Source: Dysidea avara (Eukaryota; Porifera; Demospongiae; Dictyoceratida; Dysideidae). From it: DNA of 64,000 bases. Below are positions 34,423-56,220 of this stretch, piece by piece. Each line of letters begins with the position of its first letter. Position 1 is the first letter of the stretch. Location of the stretch: positions 15,233,959 to 15,297,958 of the forward strand of contig NC_089278.1 of the NCBI RefSeq assembly GCF_963678975.1, given 5' to 3'. The position numbers and the translations under genes were made by a program. The notes beneath the pieces are model-generated. The model saw only the letters and a list, made by a program, of their open reading frames with translations, did no database searches and had not been told where the DNA came from.

Positions 34423-37400
34423 ATGGCTGTTGGAGTGGTCTATGTTAGTGTACTTGTCTTGCTTGCCTTAACTGCTATAGCTAGTGGATCACAGTACCAT
34501 CACACTGGCCAGAATGTGATCACCTGTACAAAGGGGGATAAGGACCATAGAAAAGAAGCAGCTTATGGTGCCAATAAAGGACTGAAGTAATTAATGATAT
34601 TGTCATGTTGTTGTGTCATGTGATATTGTCCTATAGTTACAGGGTGTGCTACACTACCAAGTTCAAAAACAACAATTGTACATTACGGAATAGAAAGTTT
34701 GAACTCATTGATGCTACACTTATAGGAAAAACAACAGTATATGACATTAAAACACCAACTGAGGATGGTGGTGTATATCCTGACAAGACATTGTGCACCT
34801 ATTCCCTTCCCCCTCGTCAGTTTAATCATGAGTACTTTTTCCTCTATCCTACCCCACTGGACATTGAAGAGAGCATAATACCATTTAGATGTTTGGATTC
34901 TCTACTGTATGAACATACTGTGAAGGGAATGTCAACAAAACGAACATTGATTTGTGGTAACCATGTACCCAAGAGTGGTTATGTAATGAGTGACATCATA
35001 TCAATGACATTCAGATCAAATAATAAAGTAAAGCACAAAGGAGCTAACTTTTTTGTGCTTGAAAGTGCCATTGAGGTATATTGTGTTGTGTATTTAATGC
35101 CGGTGTGGTGGAATATAGTTGATGCCAGTGTTACAGGATAGAAGAGAGAATGGTGCTCCTGGAGATCAAGGGCAAGTAGGTGAAAAGGGGAGGAGTGGAA
35201 AACCTGGTCCTAGAGGTGATGGAGGACCTCGTGGGTTACCAGGTCCTAGAGGGAATGTTGGTGAGGTTGGATCAAGAGGTGTTCCTGGACTACCAGGTGC
35301 ACAAGGAATTGTGGGACAGCGTGGTAGAAAAGGAACAAGAGGACCAAAGGGAGATAGAGGTAGCTAAGTGCTGTCATGCTGTTGTTTGGGTATTTAAGTT
35401 ATTTACATTGAATTTATCACATAGGCATCCCTGGTCCACCTGGCATAACAACATGTTCCTGTACTGGACCTAAAGGATCCATCTGTTCAGCTAGTGAGAG
35501 GAGACTCCATGTAGTTACATGTAAATGACATCAATTGTTAGGGAAAGGGGACCAAGGATCACCTGGTGATATTGGAATAAAAGGGCAACGAGGAGCTAAT
35601 GGTGTACGAGGAAGAAGTGGTATTCCAGGTGTAGATGGTATAGATGGACCTCCTGGTGAGATATAGTATATGTTTACAATTTATTGATTTACTATGTACA
35701 TACTGTTCAGGTATATCTGGCTCTCCAGGAATAACAGGCAGTCCTGGATCACGTGGTAATCCAGGATTAACAGGATCAGTAGGCTTGCCTGGTTCTCCAG
35801 GACTACCTGGGCCATCTCACTGTCCAGGCATCACTAAGAGAGATATTGAACATTTTGGTAATGTATTGTCTTCAAACATAGCCATGAGTAAAGGCTTCTT
35901 TGATGCATGGAGAGGCAATCACAACACACAACAGTATAGTTCATTTATTTTACGACAGTACTCAAAGCAAACAGAAAAACAAAATATCTACAACTTTACT
36001 GAGCACCTGGTTAACAAGAGTCATTTTCAAATTAGGAGGGGACCTGTGTTATCAGTGTGGACAGACCACAACAAGAGAGAAATAGTTGACAAGTTTCAGT
36101 GAGTGTGTGTATAATGTGTGTGTGTGTGTGTGGTGTGTTTGTGTGTGTGTGTTTAATGTGTGTGTGTGTGTGTGTGTGTGTGTGTGTGTGTGTGTGTGTG
36201 TGTGTGTGTGTGTGTGTGTGTGTGTGTGTGTGTGTGTGTGTGTGTGTGTGTGTGTGGTGTGTGTGTGTGTGTGTGTGTGTGTGTGTGTGTGTGGTGTGTG
36301 TGTGTGTGTGTGTGTGTGTGTGTAGCTTTATTATTGATATTGTTTTAGTTCTGCACCAGTCAATGAACAAAGGATTCGTAGAACAGCAAATCAGAGAGGG
36401 TTTCCATCCCAGTCATCATTTTGTCACAAAGGAGCTCTTGGATCACATGGACTGCCTGGAGAGTCAGGTGAACGTGGCAGGAAAGGAAAGACTGGATATA
36501 CTGGGTATCCAGGGCCACATGGTATGGATGCATGAATACTTGTATTCTCCTAGCTATGGTCCAATGCTATGTATATGCCCGACTGTAGTAATAGGGATCA
36601 TAAGTCAAAGACGTATTTGACACAGGAACAATATTGTGTATCATTTGTACAATACAATGTAGGTCTACAAGGCATTCATGGGTCACGTGGTGAAAATGGG
36701 GACAGTGGGTATCCTGGGCCTACTGGCTCTCAGGGATCTGATGGACCTCCAGGCTTAGCAGGATTAACAGGTGCACCAGGAGCACAAGGACCACCTGGTC
36801 TGTGTATCACTAGAGTAGTATGTATAATGATATACAGTGAAACGTCTCTATTCTGGACACTTTGGGACAATGTTAAAGTGTTTTTATTAGATGATGTCCC
36901 AATTGCAGTGGTTTAAATGTATGTACTGTAATACAAAGGCACCAAGGTCAATTGCTCTGATTGTCAAGGTGTCCAGTGTCATTTTTGAGGAGTTTCACTG
37001 TATTACTATGTAATAATTGTTAAAATATTGTGTCACATAGAGACCCACTGGAGTGCCTGGTATGCCTGGTTCAAGGGGTCCCCCTGGTACCCGTAGTACT
37101 AGGCAAACAGGGCCACCTGGTAAAGTTGGACCACCTTATGATCCAAATGGTGGAAGGAAAGGAGAAAAGGGACAGAAGGGCAATCATGGTCCACCTGGTT
37201 TTACTGGTCACAGAGGAATCCCAGGACCTTTTGGATTCCCCGGACTAAATGGGAATGATGGTCCACAAGGGAGGAAAGGAGAGCCTGGTATGGCATGCAT
37301 CCAACAAATATGTTGGTAATGCATCTTGACACAACCTGTAGGTATTGATGGACCAACTGGACCTAAAGGATTTCTAGGATTACAAGGAGAGCCAGGGTAC

Positions 37401-55200: not shown

Positions 55201-56220
55201 GGCTTCATAGTTCAAAATCCTGCTGTAATGGAAGAAACAGTCATTAGGAATACATCATATATTATTTTACCAGGGCCACCTGGGAGATCTCCTAATAGCT
55301 ATTGTATACCTGGTAGGTCAGTTTCAACAATATCAAAATCATATTGTTGTTTATATACCAGGAAGAGCAGGCATAAAAGGAAGTGCTGGGTCAAAAGGTC
55401 AAACAGGTTTTTCTGGTGTAAGCGGCCAACCAGGACAAATGGGAAGCAAGGGACCAAAAGGACTGGATGGGATACCTGGTGATGTAGGAATAAATGGGTC
55501 AGCTGGTAGTACAGGTGATATAAAGGTATGCATCCTTTAAAACCATAACAGACATGTTTTACAGGAAGGCCTGGAATTAGGGGTACTCCAGGATCTCCCG
55601 GTTTACCTGGTGATGCTGGTTCTCCAGGATTAACAGGAAAATCATTAAACTGCAACACCCAGCGTTATCAACGACAAGCAAGATTTTTATCATATGGTAA
55701 GAACACATTACAGTGTATACTGCTGACATGTAGTCATATTCAGGTGGGGTATCTTGCCCAAAACCTAGTAAAGGAGAGAAGGGCGATCAGGGTGTTAAAG
55801 GATTACGTGGACCTAAAGGTGCTTCTGGTCAGCCTGGACCAAGTGGATTTACAGGAGTAGCAGGTGAACGGGGACCAAGAGGAGATCCTGGACAAACTGG
55901 ATTATCTGGTCACACTGGTTCACGAGGAGAATGTGGTAGACCAGGAAGACGTGGCCCTACAGGCCCTCCTGGTTTACCTGGAATACTCCCAGAGGTCAAC
56001 TGTCCACGGTTTGATGGAGTAGACCTCAGTCTGGTAATGTGTAGCTGTTGTGTGATTATTAAATATATTAATACAACTATAGTCACCTCCTAATCCAGCA
56101 GAAATAAGGGTGATAACAGACCTGTTGATGACAAGAAACAGCACCTTGGCATGTACTTTAATAGATGCTAGTCAAATATTACTACAACTACTGGCTGAAT
56201 ATTTCTGCTCTGAAAACTGA
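49270..56220 (+). CDS. CUB-domain collagen, paralogue 2
   Basis: Exons: 49270-49394, 52077-52530, 52610-52832, optional 53034-53057, 53608-53670, 53748-53867, 53918-54350, 54433-54590, 54635-54792, 54853-55021, 55070-55312, 55362-55514, 55565-55696, 55744-56033, 56083-56220 (stop TGA). This gives 960 aa with the 24-nt exon or 952 without. The layout matches paralogue 1: signal peptide (MEILSIVTILILFVDIVNC), CUB-like domain in exon 2 (GGLYPNNQACFYNVGKV, FVTCGIGI, AEFRSD, GGLTFITEYP), collagen, an interruption at about 372-500 (FFDSWRGANN, FKVRRGLTISIW), a second one (CTCRIFKNLLDQFG through NSYCIPG), and a C-terminal domain (CPRFDGVDLSL, LIDASQILLQLLAEYFC). Exons 3, 11, 12 and 15 (counting the optional exon) have the same lengths as exons 3, 10, 11 and 14 of paralogue 1 (223, 243, 153, 138). 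An RGD occurs in PRGDPG. Intron 1 is 2.7 kb and holds a hairpin MITE and a minisatellite. The exon 9 donor (GTCACC) is weak. Confidence 0.83.
49496..49830. mobile_element. Hairpin MITE, copy 2 (in CUB-collagen 2 intron 1)
   Basis: Arms 49505-49654 and 49676-49820 are near-perfect inverted copies around a ~21-base loop. Outer sequence AATCTAATC and GATTAGATT extends the symmetry. Ends read AAAACAGCCAAGCTGTA and TACAGCTTGGCTGTTTT. No ORF of note. It is the best preserved member of the family. Confidence 0.85.
49855..49883. repeat. Small perfect hairpin
   Basis: CCCAAAGCTGGCC, a TAT spacer, then GGCCAGCTTTGGG. It lies in intron 1 of CUB-collagen 2, about 30 bases before a strong cryptic acceptor at 49916. 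Confidence 0.85.
50085..51080 (+). repeat. 31-bp minisatellite with higher-order structure
   Basis: About 30 units of GTAGCTGAACTCTCTACAGG plus GTGATTTGTTT and variants. Units recur in order as types such as AGGTAACTTCTTCTAGCTGA, GGGTGATTTGTTTGTAGCTG, GGGTGATTTGTTTGCAGCTG and TGGTGGTTTCTTTGTAGCTG, giving a larger period of about four to five units. It lies in intron 1 of CUB-collagen 2. Confidence 0.9.
51121..51160 (+). repeat. CTATTAGAGTAT motif, dimer
   Basis: TACTTATTAGGGTGACTG followed by TTCTATTAGAGTATCTCGAT. It sits at the end of the minisatellite. Confidence 0.7.
51161..51950. other. Unusual intron segment, possible mobile-element tail
   Basis: Base composition is less AT-rich, with more CG steps (CGATCGCG, TCGTATCTCGG, GCCGGCACG) than flanking introns. 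It ends with GGGTGACACGCCGGCTTCTT and a CACAC-TACC-GTGTG hairpin near 51930-51945. Two minus-strand ORFs (51169-51381, 51456-51641) show no family motif. Together with the minisatellite and motif it may be one composite element. Confidence 0.35.
53317..53450. mobile_element. Hairpin MITE, copy 3 (half)
   Basis: Contains AGTTAAGCTGTATTAGAAGG, CAAAAGCCTGGGTGAAAAA and GTTGTGAAATCAAAGGTGG, matching the left arm of the copies at 48243 and 49496. The right arm is missing. Confidence 0.65.

Follow-up and report, generated by a model that had tools for sequence, protein, structure and literature searches.

CUB-headed collagens with six near-equal triple-helical blocks in the sponge Dysidea avara

In the available parts of a review of fibrillar collagens, type IV and fibrillar collagens are the only types said to have been described, at that date, all the way from sponges to humans, short-chain type IV relatives being mentioned for demosponges, and the modules listed for fibrillar N-propeptides are VWC, TSPN, WAP, VWA and SURF (PMC2852846). 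A later listing of kinds, also available in part, comprises COLFI, endostatin/NC10, type IV and spongin, collectin, and C1q collagens (PMC5560861). CUB domains of the C1s/MASP type were shown to bind collagen-like stems through their Ca2+ site; in excerpts of that work, MASP-1 CUB2 coordinates Ca2+ through Glu, Asp, Asp and Ser, and three of the residues that bind Ca2+ are contacted by a lysine from the collagen stem (PMC5300068). The MASP docking motif on the stem is given as PGK-aliphatic-GP in an excerpt of another study (PMC2592599). Here, we describe two genes, A and B, in a 64-kb window of the D. avara genome (the whole stretch analysed, C7:15233959-15297958, in whose coordinates all features on this contig are given). 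To judge from their sequences, both almost certainly belong to a family of CUB-headed, six-block collagens.

Gene models and shared domain order

Gene A lies on the + strand at 34423-39191, starting with its ATG at 34423, and encodes 966 aa in 14 exons (34423-34586, 34637-35075, 35137-35359, 35425-35493, 35542-35655, 35711-36098, 36349-36521, 36663-36817, 37041-37287, 37342-37584, 37631-37783, 37840-37956, 38007-38284 and 39054-39191). Gene B, on the same strand at 49270-56220, encodes 963 aa in 14 exons (49270-49394, 52077-52530, 52610-52832, 53608-53703, 53748-53867, 53918-54350, 54433-54590, 54635-54792, 54853-55021, 55070-55312, 55362-55514, 55565-55696, 55744-56033 and 56083-56220), and 56220 is the last base of its stop codon. 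Letters were examined directly at 34200-40200 and 51600-56800. Both models were built by hand, gene B partly with gene A as a guide. A first-pass annotation of the window had proposed 14 or 15 exons with reading frames that close across them. The frames do close, with no internal stop in either gene, and the exon number is 14 in each: a 15th micro-exon in gene B (53035-53060, encoding GDRINELK) was dropped, and exon 3 was spliced directly to the exon at 53608, which gives the same junction as in gene A. The exon 8/9 boundary is uncertain in both genes (near 36817 in A and near 54792 in B).

All 26 introns of the two genes have GT-AG borders. Intron phases are identical between A and B at 13 of 13 positions (2,0,1,1,1,2,1,0,1,1,1,1,0), 5 of the 13 introns fall in the same alignment column, and identity between the proteins is 41% (372 of 900 aligned columns, with one padding X counted). 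With the other gene's protein as sole input, a spliced protein-to-DNA aligner recovered both ends of 8 of the 13 introns of A and of 7 of the 13 of B, a less dependent test of the models than guided building.

The order common to both proteins is signal peptide, CUB, COL1, CxC..C, COL2, a Cys-bounded middle domain of 121-131 residues, COL3, a short break, COL4, a 51-residue Cys-bounded insert, COL5, a Cys pair, COL6 and an end of 58-60 residues with three Cys. Thus the order read at first pass (signal peptide, CUB-like domain, interrupted collagen, middle domain, Cys-bounded interruption, Cys C-terminus) was found in both genes. The middle domain, put at 110 residues at first pass, is conserved as proposed and has 121 aa in A and 131 in B; Cys-bounded interruptions are present, as six Cys-bearing breaks after the CUB domain and not as two. 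The Cys counts of these six breaks are equal in A and B (3,2,1,3,2,3).

Exon 1 of gene A (34423-34586, + strand) encodes a hydrophobic start followed by an HTG...C segment that recurs in gene B and is similar in a paralog, L018. Its counterpart in gene B (49270-49394, + strand), with a QHTG...C segment, sits 2.7 kb upstream of exon 2 and was sought in a ranking of the ATG-initiated upstream frames that have a hydrophobic start followed by a phase-2 GT. Of the 9 such candidates listed, it ranked highest; it corresponds to exon 1 of gene A and is similar to exon 1 of L018, the segment being QHTGSSLISC in gene B and PHSGGTVGDC in L018. The signal peptides are putative, having been called from hydrophobicity only.

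The collagen repeat (PF01391) was matched in 10 stretches of gene A (E 1.2e-66) and 12 of gene B (E 9.4e-69). The rod consists of six Gly-X-Y blocks of 26, 24, 26, 26, 26 and 25 triplets in A and of 26, 25, 26, 26, 26 and 24 in B, with an extra 5-triplet Gly-X-Y piece within the third break of gene A. This even six-block spacing is a new feature, not included in the earlier account of the two genes. The triple helix rises 0.286 nm per residue, which gives about 21-22 nm for each block and about 130 nm for the rod in all.

CUB head, orphan domains and the wider family

The CUB domain occupies a single exon in each gene (34637-35075 in A and 52077-52530 in B, both on the + strand), with 39 of 144 aligned residues of B identical to A; across members, identity to the gene A domain is only 27-39%. 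Single-sequence Pfam scores are weak. The gene A domain matched PF00431 at E 0.011 and 0.0052, under the cut-off; 4 of 9 family members matched at E up to 1, with a best E of 0.0022, and the scores seen were 16.3-17.5 bits (the best member's not among them) against a curated cut-off of 21.4 bits. Whole gene B gave no CUB match in a Pfam scan at E<=0.1. A profile built from nine members, however, matched CUB modules of C1s or MASP-1 in all 6 of its PDB rows at E<=10 (E 0.0013-0.0094). The same profile aligned to a Pfam-positive CUB elsewhere in the window (hhalign E 2.8e-5, probability 74%), whereas a control alignment to the middle domain reached a probability of 0.1%. The CUB-like domain named at first pass is thus supported by the family profile. 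Most members have a Ca2+-type site: Glu and the first Asp are found in 9 of 9, while the second Asp is kept by 8 of 9 members and the Ser of DxS by 5 of 9, so that Glu-Asp-Asp is found in 8 of 9 and the full Glu-Asp-Asp-Ser set in 5 of 9. Gene B keeps the E, D, DxS pattern.

For the three other non-collagenous domains (the middle domain, the insert of 51 aa and the end of 58-60 aa), neither Pfam nor PDB yielded a convincing match. The middle domain is encoded by exons 6-7 on the + strand in both genes, at 35815-36430 in A and 54025-54499 in B (ends approximate), and could be aligned in nine members. Its match to PriCT_1 (4 of 9 members, best E 1.1e-4) was rejected, as only 1 of 4 rescanned members matched, at E 0.0014, under the cut-off and confined to the variable tail (residues 90-128); the rejection rests on this one rescanned match, the best-scoring member not having been viewed singly. 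Against PDB, the middle domain gave weak rows for interferon-gamma (E 0.12) and for PNP oxidase, a designed protein and C/EBP (E 0.26-1.4), all of which were taken as chance. The insert, of the form CxC...C, shares an exon with the end of COL4 (37342-37584 in A, 55070-55312 in B, + strand). It is conserved in paralogs on contig C4, and 26 of 52 residues of B are identical to A. Searched against PDB with one member as query, it gave zero rows, and an InlJ_IG row at E 0.017 was taken as chance. COL6 and the three-Cys C-terminal domain are encoded on the + strand by exons 13-14 of gene A (38007-39191) and at 55744-56220 in gene B, where 29 of 57 residues of the domain are identical to A. Scanned alone, the C-terminal domains of A, B and L018 had no Pfam match, and tRNA methyltransferase rows in PDB (E 0.88 and 0.62) were likewise taken as chance.

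In a search of the genome (550.8 million bases in 108 contigs, all match counts being lower bounds), the middle domain gave at least 10 matches (10 candidates scored), and the C-terminal exon at least 11 (11 candidates scored). The 11 rows for the CUB exon, from 13 candidates scored, represent at least 10 exons, an insert dividing one of these. All members are either genes A and B on contig C7 or lie on contig C4, at 14.29-14.87 and 16.19-16.20 Mb. At the contig C4 loci, each on one strand, the order CUB, middle, insert, C-terminus is kept wherever the domains were placed. Tblastn pieces under about 28 bits were excluded from this ordering; those left out scored 22-27 bits, among them a + strand pair at 14.44 Mb and pieces that resemble the insert but lie within other breaks. 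The C-terminal exons at 14.83 and 16.20 Mb were seen within the search loci only, and an insert of the 14.31-Mb gene would lie outside the stretch covered. At two loci, where some 22 and 24 kb separate the CUB exon from the middle domain, we infer that the two are linked. The member at C4:16.185-16.190 Mb could be modelled without a stop from a signal-peptide-like start to the C-terminus, its first 10-bp block being probably an aligner artefact.

Conserved splice junctions in these paralogs, outside the window, are the strongest evidence for the gene models, and the conserved junction between CUB and collagen exons does in part the service of transcript reads across it. Throughout the family, an AG acceptor stands before the CUB exon in one shared phase (10 of 10 cases), and a phase-0 GT is found behind it at the shared offset in 8 of 10; in the 14.35-Mb copy this GT looks weak. 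Before the last exon, DL[GS]L is followed by a GTA donor at all 10 loci read at that end; for the eleventh C-terminal exon, at 14.83 Mb, this donor is outside the fetched stretch or absent. The ratio of nonsynonymous to synonymous substitution rates (dN/dS) of the middle domain was 0.16-0.52 in the ten pairs among five close contig C4 members (14.31, 14.34, 14.41, 14.49 and 14.56 Mb). For A against B, and for either against most contig C4 members, dS was near or at saturation, and the ratios obtained (0.41-0.87 for B against contig C4 members, 0.19-0.31 for A where finite) were not used as evidence. The CUB-collagen architecture, with its CUB domain, six even triple-helical blocks and three orphan domains, is real and family-wide.

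Some contig C4 copies depart from the common layout. The CUB exon of one member (L031, C4:14414397-14415217) is interrupted by an insert of about 0.3 kb, and at 14.45 Mb there is a CUB exon without a middle domain nearby. Two loci, L016 and L017 (C4:14.853 and 14.862 Mb), have identical middle-domain DNA; the 14.853 copy has no CUB match, and the stretch around one of the two contains 200 N. They are perhaps a recent tandem copy or an assembly duplication.

Other genes were seen in the window. A third collagen-like gene adjoins gene B on the - strand (~56480-63165), with short Gly-X-Y exons and no CUB seen. On the same strand, at ~21742-24262, lies a gene for a secreted protein with a CUB over the Pfam cut-off (open reading frame 23086-23760, PF00431 E 1.5e-6, 28.9 bits); the exons after it are rich in Cys and Met and have no Pfam match. 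Small open reading frames on the + strand at 30370-31203 encode a hydrophobic stretch and a Cys-rich stretch (CAGTVSGCRSECGNVKFEACNTCGC), with no Pfam match at E<=0.1.

Proposed assembly and alternative explanations

Taking the explanation as a whole, we lean towards placing A and B in a family of matrix collagens that are secreted and non-fibrillar, with a docking and assembly mechanism. The conserved C-terminal domain, by its position and conservation, would start and lock the trimer, and the cysteines at each break may lock it further through interchain bonds. Equal blocks would let molecules align side by side with hinges and middle domains in register. Since the Glu, Asp, Asp and Ser ligands are mostly kept, Ca2+ binding, and with it docking on the lysines of a second helix, could be within reach of most members. 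With Ca2+ bound, the CUB head would attach to lysines of an adjacent triple helix, as the CUBs of C1s and MASPs do to the stems of C1q and MBL, and such docking would give a head-to-rod network. The docking mechanism is our best guess, offered tentatively and by analogy.

The even blocks speak for this proposal, none of 200000 random six-way splits of 151 triplets having fallen within a range of 3 triplets. Several observations weigh against parts of it. The random-break null is weak for block length, since module duplication would also yield equal blocks. When Cys triplets are counted as breaks, some blocks become shorter (26, 24, 25, 25, 26, 25 in A; 26, 25, 25, 25, 26, 17+6 in B). Among contig C4 members, unsplit blocks have 22-27 triplets, others being split by irregularities or cut off into pieces of 6-19, and some of these lengths are fuzzy because the models are automatic. 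Two of the 10 CUB exons (16.19 and 14.86 Mb) lack a phase-0 donor at the shared place. In gene A itself, two ligands of the Ca2+ site are gone, the second Asp and the Ser, and the Ser is absent in three other members. Finally, PGK-aliphatic-GP occurs in 1 of the 8 chains examined (several of them partial models), that of gene A only; this is compatible with chance (P 0.056), and the MASP docking motif was rejected as a family feature.

The last two points would also fit a CUB head that takes no part in binding other collagens and serves as a propeptide or for binding to cells or ligands. The mature rod would then depend for its assembly only on the cysteines of its C-terminus and hinges, in a network or as a collagen of the fibril surface. 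Four of 9 members have an incomplete Ca2+ site, and the docking motif is not conserved. However, Glu and the first Asp are kept in 9 of 9 despite a CUB domain only 27-39% identical to that of gene A, and we regard this reading as possible, not as probable. A soluble recognition collagen acting in defence, whose CUB or middle domain binds microbes or symbionts, could be reconciled with the clustered expansion to about ten genes, with the divergence of the CUB and middle domains and with complement CUBs as the nearest solved relatives. We consider it unlikely, given that middle-domain dN/dS is below 1 in every finite pair (0.16-0.52 in the five close contig C4 members) and that a Pfam scan found no lectin-type domain in A or B.

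The remaining two alternatives concern the identity of the genes. Homology searches detect described families only, and the three orphan domains could be distant homologues; A and B might then belong to a known class whose NC1, C-propeptide or FACIT domains diverged past recognition. This is very unlikely, since neither gene has a COLFI or C4 match, yet recognisable C4 and COLFI domains occur elsewhere in the same genome. Least probable is an artefact, in which a CUB gene was wrongly joined to unrelated collagen exons, or in which the exons are repeats. The individual CUB scores seen under the Pfam cut-off would be in keeping with it, but it is largely refuted by a junction and an order that are the same in paralogs. 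The first-pass claim that these are real genes and not repeats was thus upheld by splice sites and domain order conserved in paralogs and by the low dN/dS among the close contig C4 members.

The favoured reading, a family of matrix collagens with docking and assembly, can be stated in a stronger form: an undescribed animal collagen class with a CUB head, six equal 22-nm segments, cysteine hinges and three orphan domains, building matrix by Ca2+-dependent self-docking. In that complete form it remains doubtful. If true, a structural collagen of an early-branching animal would contain within itself an equivalent of the recognition of collagen by C1s and MASPs in complement. Such a separate class, with a complement-like CUB, about ten genes in one genome, and a trimer end and globular middle domain peculiar to it, would add to the building materials of the animal matrix and would connect collagen-binding CUBs with structural collagen in a way that can be tested. 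From the even spacing of the hinges, a repeat close to 22 nm should be visible.

Comparison with known collagens

The order had been called unreported at first pass, and this was not contradicted: we found no collagen class with this domain order in the open-licence literature, which excludes most subscription journals and was checked largely by title. To that extent, the order is undescribed for any collagen class. The word CUB is absent from a sponge-collagen review (PMC5867623) and occurs only within the references of the fibrillar review (PMC2852846, in a DOI), of a 2025 spongin paper (PMC11906918) and of a collagen IV paper (PMC5395295). A sea-anemone matrisome paper (PMC12549020) uses it only for polydoms and in its references, and a paper on extracellular matrix architecture (PMC4224354) uses it once, without collagen. 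No CUB-bearing collagen appears in the available portions of a pedal-disc transcriptome (PMC6626399), a study of premetazoan gene families (PMC5560861) and an animal-origins review (PMC8061703). Scans of bacterial contigs (43 and 6 pattern stretches) and viral contigs (10 and 76) gave none that was confirmed and are uninformative on animals.

In a Pfam scan at E<=0.1, whole genes A and B matched the collagen repeat only. There was no match to the COLFI C-propeptide (PF01410), to the C4 NC1 domain (PF01413) or to TSPN, VWA or FN3 modules, so that the absence of an NC1 or fibrillar C-propeptide end, as first proposed, was borne out by a profile check that covered CUB, collagen, NC1 and COLFI. 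Elsewhere in the genome, C4 (type IV/spongin) domains gave 23 rows on contigs C1 and C12 and none on contigs C4 or C7 (28 candidates scored), and COLFI domains gave 10 rows on C9, C1 and C10 and none on C7 or C4 (19 candidates scored). One locus on C1 (L050, 2.82 Mb) encodes a long type IV-like collagen with a C4/NC1 end.

FACIT collagens resemble A and B in that several COL blocks alternate with Cys-bearing non-collagenous domains. A and B differ from them in having no TSPN, VWA or FN3 match and in their six near-equal blocks. An interrupted helix is also found in the type IV/spongin short-chain collagens. These are, like A and B, non-fibrillar and known from sponges, according to the available part of a review (PMC5867623). 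They end in C4/NC1, whereas A and B end in an unrelated three-Cys domain of 58-60 residues. Fibrillar collagens share with A and B secreted Gly-X-Y chains, and their N-terminal modules vary; in contrast to them, A and B have neither a long uninterrupted helix nor a COLFI C-propeptide. For the N-terminal domain, the CUBs of C1s and MASP-1 are the closest solved relatives. In those systems the CUB belongs to a protease and the collagen is a separate protein, whereas in A and B both are parts of one chain.

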